DNA from: Propionicicella superfundia DSM 22317
GTDB taxonomy: Bacteria; Actinomycetota; Actinomycetes; Propionibacteriales; Propionibacteriaceae
DNA: 64,000 nt
Direction of reading: 5' to 3'
Assembly: GCF_000423465.1 (NCBI RefSeq)
Contig: NZ_AUIA01000020.1
Span: 1-64,000 of the forward strand
Each line of letters starts with the position of its first letter. The first letter of the stretch is position 1. This document shows, one piece after another, positions 40,019 through 56,582 of this stretch. The notes beneath the pieces were generated by a model that worked only from the letters and a program-made list of their open reading frames with translations, made no database searches and was not told the DNA's origin. The position numbers were made by a program, and so were the translations under genes.

Positions 40019-40624
40019 TCAGAGCGTGGCGGCCTTGGCCTTCGTGAAGCGCTCGGTCACGTCGGCCCAGTTGACCACGTTCCACCACGCGTTCACGTAG
40101 TCGGCCTTGACGTTCTTGTACTGCAGGTAGAACGCGTGCTCCCACATGTCGAGCTGCAGCACCGGCAGTTGGCCGACCGGGACGTTGCCCTGCTGATCGT
40201 AGAGCTGGTTGATGTTCAGCCGGCCACCCAGGGTGTCCCACACGAGGAGGGCCCACCCGGAGCCCTGGATGCTGTTCGCCGTGGCCGCGAAGTGCCCCTT
40301 GAAGCCCGCGAAGGAGCCGAAGTACTCGTCGATGGCCGCCGCCAGCTCCCCGGTCGGCTCGCCGCCGCCGTCGGGAGACATGTTCTTCCAGAAGACGGAG
40401 TGGTTGATGTGGCCACCCAGGTTGAAGGCCAGGTCCTTCTCCAGCTTCGGGACGGCTCCGAAGTCGCCGGTCGCGCGGGCCTCCTCCAGCTTCTCCAGCG
40501 CGGTGTTCGCTCCCGCGACATAGGCCGCGTGGTGCTTGTCGTGATGGAGCTGCATGATTTCGGGCGCGATGTGCGGGGCGAGGGCGCCGTAGTCGTAATC
40601 GAGATCGGGAAGGGTGTAGACCAT
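40019..40624 (-). CDS. sodA: Superoxide dismutase (Mn/Fe family)
   Basis: A 201-aa cytosolic enzyme converting superoxide to H2O2 and O2. Metal ligands are visible: His in MQLHHDKHH, His in [10 protein letters not shown], and Asp and His in LDMWEHAFY. The residue after LYD is Gln (YDQQGN), where M. tuberculosis Fe-SOD has His; this favours manganese or cambialistic use, as reported for propionibacterial SOD. The ATG at 40624 starts [13 protein letters not shown]; an upstream extension to 40672 was rejected. A SigR/SigH-type promoter lies 47-72 bp upstream. Confidence 0.95.
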
Positions 40625-40670
40625 CGGTTGCTCCTGTTCGTTCACGGATGATCGGGGTGCTCTTCTGTGC

Positions 40671-40696
40671 AACCTAGCCCACCAGGACGGTATTCC
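40671..40696 (-). promoter_or_regulatory. SigR/SigH-type promoter of sodA
   Basis: Reading the minus strand, GGAAT (40696-40692) is followed by exactly 18 bp and GTT (40673-40671). This equals the GGAAT-N18-GTT consensus of the thiol-stress ECF sigma factors SigR (Streptomyces) and SigH (mycobacteria). An overlapping TAGGTT could also act as a housekeeping -10. Confidence 0.6.
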
Positions 40697-40735: not shown

Positions 40736-41542
40736 TCAGCCCGTGGCCGGGACGAAGTGGGCCTTGCGCACCGAACGGCGCAGGATCGACAGCAGCGGAC
40801 CGCCCATCACCGCGATCATGAGCACGGTCGTGACGGCCCTGCCGAGGTTCCATCCCATCGACGTTGCGATGTTGTACAGGACGAAGGTGTGGATGTTCTC
40901 CAGCGCCCCGGCGGCCGGGTCGAAGCTGAACTGCGTGTGGGAACCGACCCCGAACGGCCAGAACGCGAAGTCCATGAGCCAGCCGTAGGCGAACGAGGCA
41001 AGGGCGCCGTAGGCACCGAGCAGCACGAGTTCCCACCGGCGTCCGGCGGGGGGCAGGAGCCCGGCGAAGAAGCCGACGAACCCCGAGGCCACCATCTGGT
41101 ACGGGAGCCAGGGCCCGACGCCTCCGGTGAGGATCGCCGACGCGAACAGGGACAGGTTTCCCATCGCGAACCCGAACCCCGGCCCGAACACCCGGCCGGC
41201 GACGATCATCGGGAAGAACACGAGTTCGAGCCCGGCTGTCCCCGCGCCGAGCGGGCGCAGCGCGGCCCCGACCGCCGTCATGACGCCGAGCATGGCCAGC
41301 GACTTCGCGTCCATTCCGCTGCTGCCCAGTTCGGACAGCACGACGGCGAGGACGAACGGCAGGACGACCGCGAACACCAGCGGCGCCTGCGTCGCGGGCA
41401 GATCCCAGGTCGGCGGGATGATCAGCGGCCACGCGAACGCCGCGAGCCCGGCGACGGCCGTGAGGACCAGGGTGACGCGGCTCATCCACGTGAGGCGGAC
41501 GAGTCCGCCGCGGGGCGCCGGGGCCACGAGCATCCGGCTCAT
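40736..41542 (-). CDS. ECF transporter S component, predicted cobalamin
   Basis: A 268-aa integral membrane protein with seven or so hydrophobic stretches, e.g. RVTLVLTAVAGLAAFAWPLII and APLVFAVVLPFVLAVVLSEL. It carries ECF S-type features such as MLGVMTAVGAALRPLGAG and GFGFAMGNLSLFASAILTGGVGPWLPYQMVASG. S components bind the vitamin and associate with EcfT. The B12 riboswitch upstream and the transcobalamin-like proteins point to cobalamin, or a corrinoid precursor. ATG overlaps the ATPase stop (ATGA). Last gene of the operon, 111 bp from sodA. Confidence 0.85.
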   Translation of the reverse strand: MSRMLVAPAPRGGLVRLTWMSRVTLVLTAVAGLAAFAWPLIIPPTWDLPATQAPLVFAVVLPFVLAVVLSELGSSGMDAKSLAMLGVMTAVGAALRPLGAGTAGLELVFFPMIVAGRVFGPGFGFAMGNLSLFASAILTGGVGPWLPYQMVASGFVGFFAGLLPPAGRRWELVLLGAYGALASFAYGWLMDFAFWPFGVGSHTQFSFDPAAGALENIHTFVLYNIATSMGWNLGRAVTTVLMIAVMGGPLLSILRRSVRKAHFVPATG

Positions 41543-43125
41543 GTCACGACCACCTCCCTCACCGACATGATCGGCTGCGGCGCGAACACCTTCGCCAGTT
41601 GCGGTGCGAAGGCGGGCGACGACCCGCACACCTCGCGGGTCGTCCCGTCGGCGACGATCTCGCCCTCGGCCATCAGCAGGGCGCGGTGGGTGGCCGCGGC
41701 GGCGAACTCCACATCGTGCGTGACGACGACGACGCAGGCGCCGTCGGCGGCGAGGCCGTCCACGATCCGCGACAGATTCGCCTTCATACGGTAGTCGAGC
41801 CCGCGGGTCGGCTCGTCGAGGAGCACCACGGGCGGAGCGGCGGTGAGCTGGATGGCCAGCACCAGCGACAGGCGCTGCCCCTCGGACAGATCGCGCGGGT
41901 CGGCGTCGGGGCGGACGCCGCCGTCCAGCCGGGCGAGCACCGTCGCGCAGGTGCCGGCGGGCGCCAGGGATTCCCTGTCGGCCTGCGCGCATTCCGCCGC
42001 CACGGTTCGCAGGTACAGCAGGTCGCCGGCCGATTGCGGCACGAGGGTGACCCGTCGGCGTGCGGCCGCCGCCGACAGCGACCGGGGATCGACGTCCCCC
42101 GCCACGACGAGTTCCCCGGTGCTCTTCACGGCTCCCTGCAGGGCGTTCACCAGCGATGACTTGCCCGAGCCGTTGCGGCCCATGAGCGCCGTGATCGTCC
42201 CGCCGGCGAGGTCGAGGGAGACGCCCTTCACGGCACGGAGGTCGCCGTAGGAGACGGTGAGGTCGCGCGCGGACAGGAGCGGCGGTCCGTCCGGAACGGG
42301 GGCGTCCGCGACCTCCGCCACGGTGATCCGCTCGCGCGCGATGCGCCGGCGCGCCTCCCGCACCGACAGCGGGACCTCGTCCCAGCCGAGCGTGTGTGCC
42401 AGGGCGGCGAGGGGAGGCACGACGTCGGCCCGGCCCAGGATGCTGCGCGGCGGCCCCGATTCGACCGTCCCGTCGCCGGTGACCCACACCGCGACGTCGG
42501 CTGCCTGCATGACGCGCTCGAGCCGGTGCTCGGCGAGCACGATGGTGAGCCCGACCTCGTGGACGAGGGTGGTCAGCGCCGCGAGGACGTCCTGCGCGGC
42601 GGTGGGGTCGAGTGCGGAGGTCGGCTCGTCGAGGACGAGGACGCGCGGCTGCGCGGCGAGGACCGACGCGATGGCGACCCGCTGCTGCTGCCCGCCGGAC
42701 AGGTCGAGCAGAGGTCGCCTGCGCAGTTCGGCGATGCCCATCAGGTCGAGGGTCTCCTCGACGCGCTTGCGCATCGCGACGGGGTCGACGCCCAGTTGCT
42801 CCATGCCGTAGGCGATCTCCTCCTCGACGGTGTCGGTGACGAAACCGTGGAGCGGGTTCTGCCCGACGTACCCGACGACCTCGGCCATGTCCTTCGGCCG
42901 GTGCTGCGACGTGGTGCGCCCGTCGACGGTCACGGCCCCCGACAGGGTCCCGCCCGTGAAGTGCGGGACGAGGCCGTTCATGGCTCCGAGCAGCGTCGAC
43001 TTGCCGGTTCCCGTGCGGCCGACCACGAGGGCGAGGTCGCCCTCGCCGATTCTGAGATCGACGTCGCGGAGCGTGGGCCGCGCAGCGCCGTCGTAGGTGA
43101 AGGAGACCCGGTCGAAGACGATCAC
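41539..43125 (-). CDS. ECF transporter fused A1-A2 ATPase
   Basis: A 528-aa protein with two complete ABC ATPase domains in tandem. Domain 1: GRTGTGKST, VGQNP, LSGGQQQR, VLVLDEPTSALDP. Domain 2: GRNGSGKSS, VPQSAGD, LSEGQRLSL, VVLLDEPTRGLD. Domain 2 has a diverged signature and a DE-x-T Walker B. This replaces the separate EcfA and EcfA' of classical systems. The GTG at 43125 overlaps the EcfT stop; an open frame further upstream is antisense noise. Confidence 0.93.
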   Translation of the reverse strand: MIVFDRVSFTYDGAARPTLRDVDLRIGEGDLALVVGRTGTGKSTLLGAMNGLVPHFTGGTLSGAVTVDGRTTSQHRPKDMAEVVGYVGQNPLHGFVTDTVEEEIAYGMEQLGVDPVAMRKRVEETLDLMGIAELRRRPLLDLSGGQQQRVAIASVLAAQPRVLVLDEPTSALDPTAAQDVLAALTTLVHEVGLTIVLAEHRLERVMQAADVAVWVTGDGTVESGPPRSILGRADVVPPLAALAHTLGWDEVPLSVREARRRIARERITVAEVADAPVPDGPPLLSARDLTVSYGDLRAVKGVSLDLAGGTITALMGRNGSGKSSLVNALQGAVKSTGELVVAGDVDPRSLSAAAARRRVTLVPQSAGDLLYLRTVAAECAQADRESLAPAGTCATVLARLDGGVRPDADPRDLSEGQRLSLVLAIQLTAAPPVVLLDEPTRGLDYRMKANLSRIVDGLAADGACVVVVTHDVEFAAAATHRALLMAEGEIVADGTTREVCGSSPAFAPQLAKVFAPQPIMSVREVVVT

Positions 43126-44369
43126 GACGTCACCAGCTCTTCGTCGGGACGCCGAGCGCCGGGGTCGGCGATGCCGGTGCGGCCGGTCGCGGCGGCATCG
43201 CCCCGCCGGGTCGCCGGGGGTGTCCGGCCGGGGGCGCGGGTGACGAGGATCGGAAGGGCCGTGAGGGCGGCGGCGACCACGAGCGCCGGGTGCAGGGAGG
43301 GCCACGTGGCCGGCATGAACGACGGGTTGAGGACGTCGGGGTCGAGGGTCGCGCCGAAGAGGGCCCAGACGCTCTCGTTGCCCAGTGCCAGCACGATCGC
43401 GAGCACCAGCAGGCCCGACACCGTCACGGTCCACTCCTGGATCCCCCACGGGTCGGGGCGGTACCGGGTGACGGCGATCTTGTCGCGGGACGCGCGCAGG
43501 CCGGCGACGACGCCGAGCGCACCGGCACCGAGGCAGCCGAAGGCGACCGGTCCGGGGTCGCCGGAAGAACTGAGCAGCAGGAAACCGCCGAGGGTCGCGA
43601 CCATGGACGAGACGAGCAGCAGGGCGTTCGTCCACGTGCGTCGCCGGCTGGTCGTGCGGGTGCGGCCGAAGCCCCGCGCCTCCATCGACGCGGCCAGGGA
43701 CACGGAGCGGTCGACGGCGTCGGCGAGGATCGGCACCAGGTAGGCCTTCACGGCATCGAGCCCGCGGGCCCGCCCGCCGCGCAGGCGACGTGCGGTGCGG
43801 ACGCGGAAGGCGCTTTCGACGAGCTGCGGGGCCACGCTCAGGGCGATGACGACGGAGACCGAGATGTCGTGGAGTGCAGCCGGGACGGCGCGCAGAGCCC
43901 GGCGGGGATTGGCGAGTGCGTTGGCCGCGGCCACGGCCACGAGCATGACGACGAGCCGCAGGCTGTCGTACAGCGTGTAGAGGATGCCCTCCAGGGTGAC
44001 GTCGCCTCCGAGCCGGATCCCCTGTGCCCAGTCGGGCAGCGGGATCTCGGGCAGCGTGAACAGGACCGTCTCGCCGAACCCGCCCCCGACGAGGATGCGG
44101 AAGAACATCCGCACGCCGATGACGACGCCGGCCAGCCAGAAATAGGCGCTGATCGAGCGTGCCCAGGGAGCGTCGCTGCGCCGCAACAGGATCACCGCGA
44201 GCAGCGCCAGCCCCACGAGCACGAGGAAGAGCGGGTTGGTCGTGAGATTGACGGCGATCGCGACGCCGAGCGCCCACGCCCACCAGGCCCACGGGTGGAG
44301 GATCTGGTCCGCAGGCCTGGCGAGGGTCGGGCGAGGGGTCAGCGGAACCGTCCGATCCGCAGCCACCAC
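43122..44369 (-). CDS. ECF transporter T component (EcfT)
   Basis: A 415-aa membrane protein coupling the ATPases to the S component. It has an N-terminal helix block (HPWAWWAWALGVAIAVNL), the coupling-helix motifs ending in RLRGGRARGLD and SMEARGFG, and extra C-terminal helices (ALGVVAGL, TVTVSGLLVLAIVLAL, PALVVAAALTALPILV), longer than minimal EcfT. The GTG at 44369 (or 44366) overlaps the preceding surface-protein gene by about 30 bp. Confidence 0.85.
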   Translation of the reverse strand: MVAADRTVPLTPRPTLARPADQILHPWAWWAWALGVAIAVNLTTNPLFLVLVGLALLAVILLRRSDAPWARSISAYFWLAGVVIGVRMFFRILVGGGFGETVLFTLPEIPLPDWAQGIRLGGDVTLEGILYTLYDSLRLVVMLVAVAAANALANPRRALRAVPAALHDISVSVVIALSVAPQLVESAFRVRTARRLRGGRARGLDAVKAYLVPILADAVDRSVSLAASMEARGFGRTRTTSRRRTWTNALLLVSSMVATLGGFLLLSSSGDPGPVAFGCLGAGALGVVAGLRASRDKIAVTRYRPDPWGIQEWTVTVSGLLVLAIVLALGNESVWALFGATLDPDVLNPSFMPATWPSLHPALVVAAALTALPILVTRAPGRTPPATRRGDAAATGRTGIADPGARRPDEELVTS

Positions 44370-45280
44370 ACGCCGAGCCCGCCGGCGACGAGCGCGACGC
44401 CGCCGAGGGTGCCGATGAGGGCCCACGGGGTCGCGCCGCCCGAGGCGGCCTGGTCGGCGGACGAGCCGCTGAGCGCGCCGGCGGTCTGATCGGGATCGGT
44501 GGCGGCCGTCGTGCTGCTCGCCGGGGAGGCGGAGGAGGACTCCGCCGGGGACGGGGGTGCCGACGCCGCGCTCGTGGACGCGCTGCCGGCCGCCGTGGAC
44601 GCCGGAGAGGCCGTGGCGGTCGCGGAGCCGGACCTCTTCGTCGAGCCGGAGCCCGTCTTCGTGGAGCCGGAGCCCGTCTTCGTGGAGCCGGAGCCGCCTG
44701 AGGTGGACCCGCCGGAACCTCCCGAGGCCGACGATGTCTTCGTGGCTGTCGTCGCCGGGGCCTTCGTGGTGGCCGGGGCGGTGACCGTGGGCGGGTACTG
44801 CCCCGGCGCGGGGGGCTTCGTCGTGTTGACGTCGATGAACCGCCAGCCCTCGGCGCTGCCCTTGGCGGGCTTGTACACCCCGGCGCCCTGCTGCGAATAG
44901 CTCCACGTCGACCAGGTGCCGTCCGAGTTCGGGCTGGAATGCCAGTACGACCAGTACGAGGACGCGGTGACCTTCCCGTTCGAGGGGACGCCGTCGATGC
45001 GGTTGAGGAAGCCCGCCGACTTCTCCGTGTAGCTGAACCCGGCGCTGGTCAGCGCCTGCATACCGGTCCCGTACGACGTCGCACAGCCACGGCTGATGCC
45101 ATCGCCCAGTGCCGAGGCGTCCACGATCACCCACACCCCGGAGCAGGTGGCCGGCGCGGCCGGCTGCACCGGCCCGGGTGCGGCCATCGCCGCGGGGGCG
45201 CCCGCCGCCAGCAGCAGCGCGGCCGCTCCCGCGGCGATGGAGGTCGCGATCCGGGCGGGCCGGGGGCGCGCAGTGGTCAC
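44339..45280 (-). CDS. Surface-anchored DUF4430 / transcobalamin beta-domain-like protein
   Basis: A 313-aa secreted protein. Residues 1-33 are a signal peptide ending AAMA. Residues ~45-155 resemble the C-terminal beta domain of transcobalamin (DUF4430): GTGMQALTSAGFSY, FLNRIDGVP, YWSYWHSS and GAGVYKPAKGSAEGWRF, with a Cys46/Cys66 pair. A ~130-residue Ser/Thr/Gly linker with STKTGSG repeats follows, then a C-terminal membrane helix (TPWALIGTLGGVALVAGGLGVWW) and RIGRFR tail. Predicted to present a B12-binding domain outside the membrane. GTG overlaps the upstream gene. Confidence 0.85.
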   Translation of the reverse strand: MTTARPRPARIATSIAAGAAALLLAAGAPAAMAAPGPVQPAAPATCSGVWVIVDASALGDGISRGCATSYGTGMQALTSAGFSYTEKSAGFLNRIDGVPSNGKVTASSYWSYWHSSPNSDGTWSTWSYSQQGAGVYKPAKGSAEGWRFIDVNTTKPPAPGQYPPTVTAPATTKAPATTATKTSSASGGSGGSTSGGSGSTKTGSGSTKTGSGSTKRSGSATATASPASTAAGSASTSAASAPPSPAESSSASPASSTTAATDPDQTAGALSGSSADQAASGGATPWALIGTLGGVALVAGGLGVWWLRIGRFR

Positions 45281-46398
45281 GCCCGCGGCTTCCTGCGGAC
45301 CAGCAGCGCCGTGCCCGCTCCGGCGGTGACCACCGACAGGGCGAGCAGGCCGGCGCCGACGTCGGCGCCGGTGTCGGCCAGCTCCTCGCCGGATGCCGTG
45401 GAGGACGCCGTGGCGGACGCCGTCGTGCCCGTTGCCGTCGAGGTCGCCGTCGTCGTCGGCGAGCCGGTCGTCGTGGCGGTGGGCGACGTGGAGCCGGATT
45501 GCGTGGAGGTCGGCGTCGCCGTGGGGGCCGTCACGGTGTAGGTGATCGTCAGGAACGTCTCTCCGGTGAGCGCGAGGATGCCCTGCTGCGTGGCGAGCAG
45601 GTCGGGGTCGTTCGCGCCCGAGGCGCCGGTCTTGAGCCCGCCGTTCGCCACCTGCTGCGACACGACGTAGTCGGCGGCGTTCGTCGCTGCGGCTCCGGTC
45701 ATGAGCGGCCCGAGCAGACCCGTGGAGTTCACGGGGGAGTAGTTGGACCAGCTCCCGTCGGGCTGCTGCTGGGTGGCGACGAAGGCCAGCGCGTCGGCCA
45801 GCGCGGGATCGGTGGACTGGGCCGCCTGCAGTCCCAGGATGGCGAGCGCCGTCATGTCGGTGTCGTAGGTGGACTCGCCGGTGGCCCAGGTGAAGCCGCC
45901 GTCGGCGGACCGGTAGGTCAGCAGGTAGGTGACCATGCTCGACGGGATGGTCTCACCGTTGCGAGCCAGTGCGACCATGGCGATCCCGGACGAGAACGGG
46001 CCGGGCCAGTCGCCGATCGAGCCGTCGCCGCCGATGCCCGCCTGGACGAGCGCGATCAGGTCCTGACCGCCGAAGTCGGAGGCGTCCTGGCCGGTCGCGG
46101 CGGCGACGATGGCCAGCTTGGCCGCCGTCACCGCGTCGCCGGAGGCGATGTAGGACGCCGCCTGCGCCTTCAGGTAGGTGAGGCGGTTGAAGATCTCGTC
46201 GTTGTAGGCCGTATCTCCCGTCGACGCGAGCGCCAGGACGTCATCGGCGACGGTTCCGGGCGTCCAACCGGACTGGGTGTGGTTCGCGACGATCCAGTCC
46301 GCCGCCTTGGTGGCCTCGGCGCTCGCCGCCCTGGCGGGGCTGACGAACACGACGAAGGAGAGCGCGATCGCTGCAAGGATCGCGAGAGTGCGTTTCAT
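45277..46398 (-). CDS. LAxTG-anchored alpha/alpha-barrel protein, transcobalamin/intrinsic-factor alpha-domain-like
   Basis: A 373-aa secreted protein: signal peptide 1-24, then prenyltransferase/squalene-oxidase-type helical repeats (GGDGSIGDWPGPFSSGIAMVAL, SADGGFTWATG, QQQPDGSWSNY) like the alpha6/alpha6 barrel of intrinsic factor and transcobalamin. A Thr/Ser/Pro linker leads to LADTG, a hydrophobic stretch and an RRKPRA tail, matching the LAxTG sorting signal used by class E sortases. First gene behind the cobalamin riboswitch. The ATG at 46398 follows AAAGGA. Without the riboswitch it would be just a terpene-cyclase-fold protein. Confidence 0.88.
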   Translation of the reverse strand: MKRTLAILAAIALSFVVFVSPARAASAEATKAADWIVANHTQSGWTPGTVADDVLALASTGDTAYNDEIFNRLTYLKAQAASYIASGDAVTAAKLAIVAAATGQDASDFGGQDLIALVQAGIGGDGSIGDWPGPFSSGIAMVALARNGETIPSSMVTYLLTYRSADGGFTWATGESTYDTDMTALAILGLQAAQSTDPALADALAFVATQQQPDGSWSNYSPVNSTGLLGPLMTGAAATNAADYVVSQQVANGGLKTGASGANDPDLLATQQGILALTGETFLTITYTVTAPTATPTSTQSGSTSPTATTTGSPTTTATSTATGTTASATASSTASGEELADTGADVGAGLLALSVVTAGAGTALLVRRKPRA

Positions 46399-46442
46399 CC
46401 GCTTGTCCTTTCTGTGAGTCATCCACACCTTGGGCAAGCGGA

Positions 46443-46537
46443 CCTCGGCGCGTTGACGGTCGGGATCACCAGGCATTCCGGCTATACGGCTGCGCGTCAG
46501 TCCCGGAGTCTCACCGGGTTCCCCTGCAGATCCGAGG
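46443..46537 (-). ncRNA. Cobalamin riboswitch
   Basis: On the minus strand the B12-box consensus is clear: GGGAACCCGGTGAGACTCCG followed by GGGACTGACGCGCAGCCGT. The flanking P1 stem pairs CCTCGG (46532-46537) with CCGAGG (46443-46448). It lies 45 nt ahead of the first surface-protein gene. B12 riboswitches normally shut off uptake and synthesis genes when cobalamin is bound. Confidence 0.92.
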
Positions 46538-46662: not shown

Positions 46663-47259
46663 TCACCGCGGACGGGTCACCGTGAGGACGCGGAAGCCCT
46701 TCGCGCTCGCCGTGCGGGAGGCGTCCCAGCCCTGCCCCTGGAGCCACGACTGCAGCGAGTCGGCTCCGAGGTTCCGGCCGACGACGAGTTGCGCGACACC
46801 GTCGTCGGCCAGGCGGCCGAGCCACGTGACGAGCAGGTCGTGCAGGGCGGTCTTGCCGATCCGGATGGGCGGGTTGGACCAGATCTCGTCGTAGCGGTCC
46901 GATCGGCTCGCCTCGTCGGGCCGTAGCGCCCGGATCCGGTCGCCGAACCCGTGGCGGGCGGCGTTGTCGCGGGTCAGCTCCAGCGCGCGGTCGTTGACGT
47001 CGACCGCGTCGACGGTCGCCGCGGGGCACGCGGCGGCCAGCGCCAGCGCGATCGGCCCGTACCCGCACCCGAGGTCGAGGAGCCGGCGGGATCCGGAGCG
47101 GGGAAAGACCGAACGGAGCAGGACGGCGGTGCCGAGGTCCAGCCGGTCGCCGGAGAAGACCCCTCCCGACGTCTCGACGGTGAAGGGGGTGTCGAACAGG
47201 GTGACCGTGATCTCGCGGCGGACGTCCGCGCCGGACGGTGTCTCGAAGTAGTGGCTCAC
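46663..47259 (-). CDS. RsmC-like class I SAM methyltransferase
   Basis: A 198-aa methyltransferase. Motif I is LLDLGCGYGPIALAL, and the catalytic NPPIRIGK loop identifies the N2-guanine branch (RsmC, 16S G1207 methylation), here the short single-domain form. N-terminal SHYFETPSG is typical of actinobacterial members. The GTG at 47259 overlaps the truA stop (GTGA). Upstream in-frame sequence is inside truA. Confidence 0.87.
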   Translation of the reverse strand: MSHYFETPSGADVRREITVTLFDTPFTVETSGGVFSGDRLDLGTAVLLRSVFPRSGSRRLLDLGCGYGPIALALAAACPAATVDAVDVNDRALELTRDNAARHGFGDRIRALRPDEASRSDRYDEIWSNPPIRIGKTALHDLLVTWLGRLADDGVAQLVVGRNLGADSLQSWLQGQGWDASRTASAKGFRVLTVTRPR

Positions 47260-48113
47260 GGCTCCCCCAGGGTGCGCACGGCACGGGCTTCGCGTGCCCG
47301 CGCGGCCAGCTCGGCCGGCGAGGGATAGCCGACCTCCTCCAGCACCAGGCCGTTGGCCGCCATGACGCGGATCTGGCTGCTGCGTGTGCGGGCGGCGAGG
47401 GTCCGGTCGAGCCAGGCGCCGTCGCGGCGGCCTTCGCCGACGGCGACGAGCGCGCCGACCAGCGAGCGGACCATCGAGTGGCAGAAGGCGTCGGCGACGA
47501 CCTCGATCTCGATGAGGCCGTCGGCGTCCTGGGTGAGGGTGAGCCGCTGCAGGTCGCGGATCGTCGTCGCCCCCTCGCGAGCCTTGCACAGCGAGGCGAA
47601 GTCCCGCAGGCCGACGAGGTGGGGGACGGCGTCCCGCATCGCGGCGACGTCCAGCGGCTGCGGGTACCGGGCGACGAAACCACGCCGCAACGGGTCGACG
47701 GCCCCGTCGGCGTCGAGCAGCCGGTACACGTATCGCCGCCAGATCGCGGAGAACCGCGCATCGAATCCGGGGGGTGCGGGAGCGACGGCGCGCACCGCGA
47801 GATCCTCCGGCAGTGCCCGCCGGTAGCGCTGTGCGAGCTCACCCGCGAGCGCGCCCGCGTCGTCGGGTGTGCCCGGGAGGTCGACGTGCGCGACCTGGCC
47901 GCGCGCGTGAACGCCGGCGTCGGTCCGGCCCGCACACGTGAGTTCCACCGGGTCGGGGAGCCGCAGGATGCGTTGCGTCCAGTCCTCCAGGTCGCCTTGC
48001 ACGGTGCGCAGGCCCGGTTGGGCGGCCCAGCCGTGGAAGGCGGTGCCGTCGTAGGAGATGTCGAGGCGCAGCCGCACCGTCGTGGTCGCGTGGAGCGTGT
48101 CGTCAGTGGTCAT
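47256..48113 (-). CDS. truA: tRNA pseudouridine synthase A
   Basis: A 285-aa enzyme making pseudouridine at tRNA positions 38-40. RLRLDISYDGTAFHGWA and the catalytic Asp65 in GRTDAGVHARGQVAHVD are present, plus FCHSMVRSLVGALVAVG near the C-terminus. It overlaps trmB by 11 bp and rsmC-like by 4 bp, forming an RNA-modification operon. In many actinobacteria truA follows rplQ; here it is separated by the B12 operon. Confidence 0.96.
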   Translation of the reverse strand: MTTDDTLHATTTVRLRLDISYDGTAFHGWAAQPGLRTVQGDLEDWTQRILRLPDPVELTCAGRTDAGVHARGQVAHVDLPGTPDDAGALAGELAQRYRRALPEDLAVRAVAPAPPGFDARFSAIWRRYVYRLLDADGAVDPLRRGFVARYPQPLDVAAMRDAVPHLVGLRDFASLCKAREGATTIRDLQRLTLTQDADGLIEIEVVADAFCHSMVRSLVGALVAVGEGRRDGAWLDRTLAARTRSSQIRVMAANGLVLEEVGYPSPAELAARAREARAVRTLGEP

Positions 48114-48819
48114 CGGCCCGTCCGTATTCGAGGTCGCGAATCGTCCGCCCGGCGGCCAGGCCTCGGGCCTCGAACCGGGTGAGCGGGCGGACGTCGGGAC
48201 GCGGGGCCCACCCGGCGTGCAGGTTCACCAGGCCGGGGCACGCGTCGAGGACGTCGCGCATCACCAGCGCATAGTCCTCCCAGTCGGTCGCGAGCCGCCA
48301 CGTCCCGCCCGGCGCGAGACGCTCGGCCACGAGTCCGGCGAAGCGCGCGTCCACCAGGCGCCGTTTGTGGTGCCGGGCCTTGTGCCATGGATCGGGGAAG
48401 TAGGTCACGACCTGCGTCAGGGAGCGGGGCCCGAACAACGTGCGCAGCCCTTGCTCGCCGTCGGCCTGCACGAGGCGGACATTGGTCGTGCCCGCAGCGT
48501 GCAGTCTGGCGACGATCCCGGCGATCGCGGGCTCGAACACCTCGAAACCGATGATGTCGAGGTCGGCCCGTTCCAGCGCGAGGGACACGATGCTCTCGCC
48601 GTGGCCGGGCCCGATCTCGACGACGCGCGGCGCGGAGCGGCCGAAGGCGGCATCCCAGTCGACGTGGGCGTCGGCCGCGATCGACGTGGACCGGTCGGCG
48701 GTGTCGACGGGGACGAGGTACCGGGAACCGTACCGGTCGAGGGCGGCGCGGAGGTTGGGCCGCATCCGAGTGCTGCGTCGCACGTAGGAGACAACCTGAC
48801 GGTGGCTCGGGTGCGACAT
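48103..48819 (-). CDS. trmB: tRNA (guanine-N7)-methyltransferase
   Basis: A 238-aa SAM enzyme methylating G46 of tRNA. VVEIGPGHGESIVSLA is motif I; TYFPDPWHKARHHKRRLV is the diagnostic TrmB block; TDWEDYALVM follows. First gene of the truA operon; ATG at 48819. The start MSHPSHRQVVSYVRRSTRM is plausible, with an internal ATG after the first 18 residues as alternative. Confidence 0.95.
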   Translation of the reverse strand: MSHPSHRQVVSYVRRSTRMRPNLRAALDRYGSRYLVPVDTADRSTSIAADAHVDWDAAFGRSAPRVVEIGPGHGESIVSLALERADLDIIGFEVFEPAIAGIVARLHAAGTTNVRLVQADGEQGLRTLFGPRSLTQVVTYFPDPWHKARHHKRRLVDARFAGLVAERLAPGGTWRLATDWEDYALVMRDVLDACPGLVNLHAGWAPRPDVRPLTRFEARGLAAGRTIRDLEYGRADDH

Positions 48820-49503: not shown

Positions 49504-49531
49504 CCCGGGGCGCGACCGGACGCCACCCGCG

Positions 49532-49738
49532 CCGAGGTGGGCGTGTGGTCTTGTGGTTCGGGCGGATGGTGTCGGGGAGCGTGGTTGGGGCTGGCCCGCG
49601 CCGAGGTGGGCGTGTGGTCTTGTGGTTCGGGCGGATGGTGTCGGGGAGCGTGGTTGGGGCTGGCCCGCGCCGAGGTGGGCGTGTGGTCTTGTGGTTCGGG
49701 CGGATGGTGCCGTGAGCGTGGATGGGGCTGGCCCCCGC
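49532..49738. repeat. 69-bp tandem array, three units
   Basis: Units begin CCGAGGTGGGCGTGTGG at 49532, 49601 and 49670, and a degenerate fourth begins near 49738. Units are almost identical. Each contains GGTCTTGTGGTTCGG, whose complement occurs in the neighbouring 35-bp array. Confidence 0.9.
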
Positions 49739-49777
49739 CGAGCTTGCGAGGCGGGTGGTTGCGAACGGCACCATCCC

Positions 49778-49990
49778 CCGAACCACAAGACCGAGCCGAG
49801 CGCAGCGCATGTCCGAACCACAAGACCGAGCCGAGCGCAGCGCATGTCCGGACCACAAGACCGAGCCGAGCGCAGCGCATGTCCGGACCACGGGGTCGAA
49901 CCGAGCGCAGCGCATGTCCCGAACCACAAGACCGAGCCGAGCGCAGCACACGTCCCGGACCACGGGGTCGAGCCGACCGCAGCACACGTC
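49778..49990. repeat. 35/36-bp tandem array, six units
   Basis: Units start CCG(A/G)ACCACAAGACCGAG or CCGGACCACGGGGTCGA at 49778, 49813, 49848, 49883, 49919 and 49955 and share GAGCGCAGC(G/A)CA(T/C)GTCC. The period is not a multiple of three, so no reading frame is kept. Together with locus B and the 69-bp array this fills the gene-free stretch 49304-50069. Confidence 0.9.
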
Positions 49991-50069
49991 CCGACACGGG
50001 ACCGACCCGATCCCCCGGATCGACACGACAGAGCCGGGCGGTCCGAGGGACGTCACCGGGCCGGACGCA

Positions 50070-56117: not shown

Positions 56118-56575
56118 GGTTGAGCTTGTCGAAGCCACCGTCCTTTCGGCAGGCTCGAGGACCTGGGAGGGACGGGCTCAAGGACCCGGTGGTTGAGCTT
56201 GTCGAAGCCACTGTCCTTTCGGCAGGCTCGAGGACCTGGGAGGGACGGGCTCAAGGACCCGGTGGTTGAGCTTGTCGAAGCCACCGTCCTTTCGACGGGC
56301 TCAAGGACCTGGGAGGGACGGGCTCAAGGACCCGGTGGTTGAGCTTGTCGAAGCCACTGTCCTTTCGGCAGGCTCGAGGACCTGGGAGGGACGGGCTCAA
56401 GGACCCGGTGGTAGCTTGTCGAAGCCACTGTCCTGTCGGCAGGCTCGAGGACCTGGGAGGGACGGGCTCAAGGACCCGGTGGTTGAGCTTGTCGAAGCCA
56501 CCGTCCTTTCGACGGGCTCAAGGACCCGGGAGGGACGGGCTCAAGGACCCGGTGGTTGAGCTTGTCGAAGCCACC
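56118..56575. repeat. 73-bp tandem array, about six and a half units
   Basis: Units begin GGTTGAGCTTGTCGAAGCC at 56118, 56191, 56264, 56337, 56410 (with a 3-bp deletion), 56481 and 56554. Each carries inverted partners (GAGCTTGTCGAA and TTCGACGGGCTCAA, GGGCTCAAGGACC). TTGAGCTTGTCGAA palindromes are frequent in actinobacterial intergenic DNA. The array fills the spacer between convergent araD and gltA (56097-56582) and probably acts as a terminator. Confidence 0.9.
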
Positions 56576-56582
56576 GCGGAGG

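Follow-up and report, generated by a model that had tools for sequence, protein, structure and literature searches.

A five-gene operon behind a cobalamin riboswitch

The window analyzed here is a 64,000-nucleotide stretch of the genome of the actinobacterium Propionicicella superfundia DSM 22317 (positions 1 to 64,000 of contig NZ_AUIA01000020.1). It contains an operon of five overlapping genes on the minus strand, running from 46398 to 40736 behind a compact cobalamin riboswitch. These genes encode, in order, two secreted proteins, hereafter A and B, followed by EcfT, a fused EcfA1A2 ATPase and an S component, the parts of an energy-coupling factor (ECF) importer. Here, we describe the evidence suggesting that A and B are separate-chain counterparts of the two domains of animal transcobalamin and that the operon encodes a corrinoid uptake system.

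Gene A (45277-46398, domain at 45528-46350) is predicted to encode an alpha/alpha-toroid protein corresponding to the alpha domain of transcobalamin. Judged by eye, the protein has an N-terminal signal peptide and a C-terminal sortase-type anchor, in which an LADTG motif (45367-45381) precedes a hydrophobic stretch and an RRKPRA tail; the NCBIfam LAVTG surface-protein domain matches below its cut-off (E = 5e-4). The host genome contains 6 sortase-domain matches, and A is probably attached to the cell wall by sortase. Gene B (44339-45280, domain at 44801-45175), which is joined to A by a GTGA overlap, encodes a protein with a signal peptide, a Ser/Thr/Gly linker and a C-terminal transmembrane helix (44342-44428), and inspection of the sequence found no sortase-type motif.

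The EcfT transmembrane subunit (43122 to about 44366, the start being uncertain) overlaps B, carries the EARG coupling motif and matches PF02361 (CbiQ; E = 9.3e-9). It overlaps by 4 nucleotides the fused EcfA1A2 gene (41539-43125), with two ABC_tran domains (E = 1e-48) and a match to TIGR04520 (ECF_ATPase_1; E = 4e-83), which in turn shares an ATGA overlap with the S component gene (40736-41542). The S component scores 27.9 bits against PF12822 (ECF_trnsprt), just under the cut-off of 30.7, and recurs in relatives. With a T subunit, two ATPases in fused form and an S component in a single operon, the locus encodes an ECF transporter with a dedicated module. An earlier note on this DNA, made from the sequence alone, had read the locus as five overlapping minus-strand genes following a B12 riboswitch, the last three encoding EcfT, a fused A1A2 ATPase and an S component; gene calls, Pfam and NCBIfam matches and covariance models bear out both statements, with the S component slightly below threshold.

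The riboswitch aptamer, of the AdoCbl-II type, occupies 46462-46533 on the minus strand. At the gathering threshold, Rfam produced no match anywhere in the window, and RF01689 (AdoCbl-II) matched the leader at 46463-46533 with 30.2 bits (E = 3.9e-5), under its gathering score of 36.5. A regular-expression scan was too strict, and in its place we used a covariance model, R1, built from the leaders of 12 relatives with the window left out of training; R1 scores the window leader (46462-46529) at 58.2 bits (E = 2.6e-10). Furthermore, Rfam cut-offs for cobalamin riboswitches (clan CL00101) are exceeded at the loci of 7 relatives. The same arrangement, riboswitch-(A/B)-T-A1A2-S, is found repeatedly across the Actinobacteria, which argues against a chance match; a secondary Rfam match labeled 'FMN' (11.9 bits) overlaps the better-scoring cobalamin match and was dismissed.

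Folding of the leader points to a possible expression platform at 46397-46443, where a predicted 9-bp helix pairing 46443-46435 with 46405-46397 would occlude the start codon of A, with the ribosome-binding stretch AGAAAGGA enclosed by the helix. The segment 46390-46462 folds at -24.9 kcal/mol (z = -1.98), with 9 of 200 shuffled sequences equally good. For the leader as a whole, shuffled sequences reach minimum free energies just as favorable, and we therefore propose only this 3' hairpin, which is suggestive of translational control of A.

Relationship of A and B to animal B12 carriers

Sequence comparison connects the two proteins to known families only loosely. A gives a weak squalene-cyclase/toroid match in Pfam and NCBIfam. 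PF01122, the eukaryotic cobalamin-binding protein family, is absent from the matches of window A and was matched by 6 of 50 members of the A family (best E = 0.0058); the A profile reaches a haptocorrin sequence with E = 0.02, a weak link to the animal carriers. Window B scores 15.3-18.1 bits (E = 0.03) against PF14478 (DUF4430), below the cut-off of 23.8, and that profile matched just 1 of 60 B-family members at all. A search of PDB sequences with the B profile did not find transcobalamin, so that the connection between B and transcobalamin rests on structure.

This structural connection is clear. An AlphaFold2 model of the B domain built with 60 homologues (pLDDT, the predicted local distance difference test score, 89.6; predicted TM-score, pTM, 0.83) was compared with the whole PDB using Foldseek. 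Ranks 1-15 are all transcobalamin or haptocorrin structures with probability 1.00, including the isolated beta domain of human transcobalamin in complex with cyanocobalamin (5np4). The next match is 3u7z, a protein of the bacterium Ruminococcus gnavus that we take to be a DUF4430 member. The earlier assignment of B as a counterpart of the transcobalamin beta domain is thus borne out at the level of fold, even though DUF4430 itself stays below its cut-off.

In the naturally fused A-B protein of a relative (locus L062; pLDDT 91.3, pTM 0.84), both domains match the animal transcobalamin fold family: the 15 best PDB matches are transcobalamin, intrinsic factor and haptocorrin structures, aligned over 407-454 columns with E-values from 8e-9 to 3e-6, and squalene-hopene cyclases follow only after these, covering the toroid alone. 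In the models of both window B and the fused relative, the beta domain has the order strand-strand-helix-short strand pair-strands. Window A is homologous to the A half of the fusion (family hidden Markov model (HMM) E = 4e-67; 37-38% identity). Thus, the match of folds to the transcobalamin alpha and beta domains that the earlier note had put forward as its check clearly holds for window B and for the fused relative, and extends to window A only by way of this homology.

Conservation and rearrangement across Actinobacteria

The S component is present in 32 of the 38 genomes searched, the host's own included, and was matched at least 549 times in GTDB contigs. We assembled 33 loci from relatives and 80 from GTDB, the latter from Propionibacteriaceae, Intrasporangiaceae, Streptomyces, Lentzea, Micromonosporaceae, Amycolatopsis, Acidimicrobiia and one metagenome-assembled genome of Chloroflexi. 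With family HMMs seeded with the A and B proteins of the window, we found B in 79 of the 82 loci that contained EcfT and enough upstream DNA, and A together with B in 57; B immediately precedes EcfT in nearly all loci. A cobalamin riboswitch detected by R1 lies within 700 nucleotides before the first A, B or T domain in 84 of 91 loci (12 of the riboswitch-bearing loci had served to train the model), against a chance expectation of about 0.05 derived from the background of 5 matches in the 3.6-Mb host genome. The association of A and B with a B12 riboswitch, for which a genome survey had been suggested, is therefore widespread.

The two domains also occur in a single chain. Among 14 such open reading frames, five have the A-B order of transcobalamin (L035, L056, L062, L098 and L109) and nine the reverse B-A order (L042, L065, L067, L072, L079, L088, L091, L093 and L116). 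Detached A/B units that lack ECF genes have riboswitches of their own (L086, L088, L116, L118 and L127). Conversely, some S paralogues stand without A, B, T or ATPase genes beside genes for a CobT-CobU fusion and CobS (L025, L026 and L028), with weaker riboswitch matches.

A further rearrangement apparently affects B itself. NCBIfam reports weak matches of A to SCO2321 (NF053823) and of B to SCO2322 (NF040672), two Streptomyces families without an assigned function, for which no mention in a B12 context was found in the literature searched. In 12 loci (L022-L024, L027, L032, L033, L047-L049, L053, L054 and L104), an SCO2322-like gene holds the place of B before EcfT. In all 12 of the encoded proteins, B-profile positions from the C-terminal half (approximately 67-110) come first and those from the N-terminal half (approximately 5-65) second. 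Taken singly, each protein matches the second segment weakly (3-12 bits); the order is nonetheless identical in 12 of 12, and SCO2322-type proteins thus appear, as judged from profile order, to contain a circularly permuted beta domain. In a sample of 297 genomes from the class, the B profile found matches in 160, belonging to 67 of 115 genera, in many cases through the permuted half alone.

The host genome encodes a second B-type protein (G000:C9:10880-11469, locus L144), which has its own compact cobalamin riboswitch and is followed by Ig-like repeats, with no ECF genes nearby; its sequence suggests a B12-regulated secreted beta-domain protein. Elsewhere in the same genome (G000:C5, around 53640, locus L148), a weak riboswitch-model match (32 bits) lies ahead of genes for a BtuCD/F420-0-type ABC importer, a binding protein and a methyltransferase. 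This could possibly be a second corrinoid importer or one for siderophores or heme.

The surroundings of the operon are conserved across Propionibacteriaceae, with sodA on one side (window 40019-40672) and methyltransferase, truA and trmB genes on the other (46663-48819). These retained neighbors make it probable that the operon is ancient and has been inherited vertically. The window additionally contains a tandem array at 56118-56576 (73-bp unit, about 6 copies, 94% matches) and two adjoining arrays at 49526-49991 (69 bp x 3.2; 35/70 bp x 6/3).

Corrinoid uptake and its alternatives

We propose, with a probability of roughly 0.8, that the operon serves corrinoid uptake under repression by cobalamin, with a two-piece extracellular capture device feeding a dedicated ECF importer. 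The toroid A, probably anchored to the wall, and the membrane-tethered beta-grasp protein B, as separate-chain homologues of the transcobalamin alpha and beta domains, would enclose a corrinoid on the outer side of the membrane, forming a two-chain clamp, and hand it over to the S component, which together with EcfT and the fused EcfA1A2 would import it at the expense of ATP. At high intracellular concentration, cobalamin would bind the riboswitch and shut off translation. A corrinoid substrate, whether cobalamin, other cobamides or cobinamide, is supported by the riboswitch linkage, the A-B fusions and the S paralogues beside cobT-cobU and cobS.

Several observations weigh against this interpretation. 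Genes for cobalamin biosynthesis are present in the host (cobI/cbiL and cobA, matched above cut-off and lying behind their own cobalamin riboswitch), so that corrinoid uptake is not strictly needed. Cobalamin riboswitches also control cobalt transporters, and the S profile matches no sequence of a solved structure, CbrT included. No A gene was found nearby in 25 of the 82 loci (22 with B only, 3 with neither), and the loci were collected by S-component similarity and are related to each other, so that the counts are not independent events. For A of the window, the toroid assignment comes through the homologous half of the fusion rather than from a model of its own. Finally, the fusion model aligns to the animal carriers over the whole chain with a TM-score of 0.40-0.47 and a root-mean-square deviation of about 16 Å: the folds agree, and the domain placement differs from that of closed transcobalamin, which may reflect an open apo state or a modeling artefact.

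The biosynthesis genes make a serious sub-alternative of a system with the same architecture and a different cargo, namely cobinamide or non-cobalamin cobamides, taken up for salvage or to recapture lost cobamides in a B12 producer. This is a tenable though less probable reading, also favored by the position of S paralogues next to cobT-cobU and cobS, that is, cobinamide-salvage and lower-ligand steps. Several animal carriers of the transcobalamin fold are selective for cobalamin, which counts against it, and as neither the riboswitch nor the fold distinguishes cobalamin from other corrinoids, nothing favors another cargo over cobalamin. It is improbable that A and B are surface proteins with a different job, such as glycan binding or a B12-dependent extracellular reaction, merely co-regulated with the transporter: toroids and beta-grasp domains do bind many ligands, and A/B units, like the B paralogue with its Ig-like repeats, do occur away from ECF genes, but the regular position of B directly upstream of EcfT and the B12 carriers at the top of the fold matches argue otherwise. 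Least likely, and by our estimate very improbable, is import of cobalt or of a B12 precursor such as dimethylbenzimidazole by the ECF part, with A and B binding no corrinoid: cobalt ECF transporters share this type of riboswitch and EcfT matches the CbiQ family, but the S component is not CbiM-like, the genome has a separate CbiM cobalt-uptake operon behind its own cobalamin riboswitch, and A and B match transcobalamin, in which free cobalt has no role.

The core concept of the corrinoid capture system is already known as a prediction. Burroughs, Balaji, Iyer and Aravind defined the SLBB superfamily in 2007 and predicted B12 scavengers in low-GC Gram-positive bacteria that combine a transcobalamin-like SLBB domain with an alpha/alpha-toroid, in either fusion order, and are encoded with CbiO and CbiQ; animals were proposed to have acquired the transcobalamin module from such bacteria (PMC1796856). 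This contextual prediction agrees with our interpretation, and the 'Gram-positive counterpart of BtuB/BtuG' of the earlier note is accordingly not a new idea. Both sets of proteins pair a beta-grasp domain with a toroid, are secreted or anchored, and accompany a CbiO-like ATPase and a CbiQ-like permease; the operons described in 2007 sometimes hold a second SLBB paralogue. That transcobalamin-like clade comprised low-GC Gram-positives, planctomycetes and euryarchaea, mostly B12 non-producers, and the main text mentions neither a riboswitch nor a permutation and names actinobacteria only for ComEA (PMC1796856). Beyond that prediction, the present analysis adds an actinobacterial clade missed by Pfam DUF4430, the association with a riboswitch, the division of A and B between two genes, an S component dedicated to the system, a host that carries B12 biosynthesis genes and an apparently permuted B. 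We found no report of the actinobacterial branch, its link to B12 riboswitches or the rearranged B in the freely readable literature; subscription-only ECF surveys, in which such an actinobacterial S component may already figure as a predicted B12-regulated transporter, lie outside the search.

Animal transcobalamin, intrinsic factor and haptocorrin have the same predicted folds as A and B, and five relatives also show their A-then-B order. Unlike the animal carriers, which are coupled to an endocytic receptor, the window proteins are two chains, predicted to be anchored to the cell, and would be coupled to an importer; identity in the structural alignments is 12-19%. ECF-CbrT of Lactobacillus delbrueckii, a proven B12 importer, would have a B12-type cargo in common with the system predicted here, but it employs a shared ECF module, and the accessible part of its description contains no transcobalamin-like partner (PMC5997447), whereas the operon described here has a dedicated T subunit and fused A1A2. 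The surface lipoproteins BtuG and BtuH of Bacteroides act together with an outer-membrane transporter of the TonB-dependent type (PMC6143338, PMC8941943); surface capture of B12 joined to an importer makes the BtuB/BtuG/BtuH system, at most, a functional analogue.

There is a slightly better than even chance that Actinobacteria possess a large family of riboswitch-controlled transcobalamin-like modules, split, fused in both orders and permuted, each feeding a previously unassigned class of ECF S components, even in bacteria that make B12. The proposed system provides a testable mechanism for extracellular corrinoid capture by Gram-positive actinobacteria, many soil and industrial species among them, and a substrate hypothesis for the unnamed SCO2321 and SCO2322 families as well as for an unassigned ECF S component. 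It would extend the proposed bacterial ancestry of the human B12 carriers to a phylum in which Pfam does not detect them, and its natural split and permuted forms may be useful for studying how the two domains cooperate.

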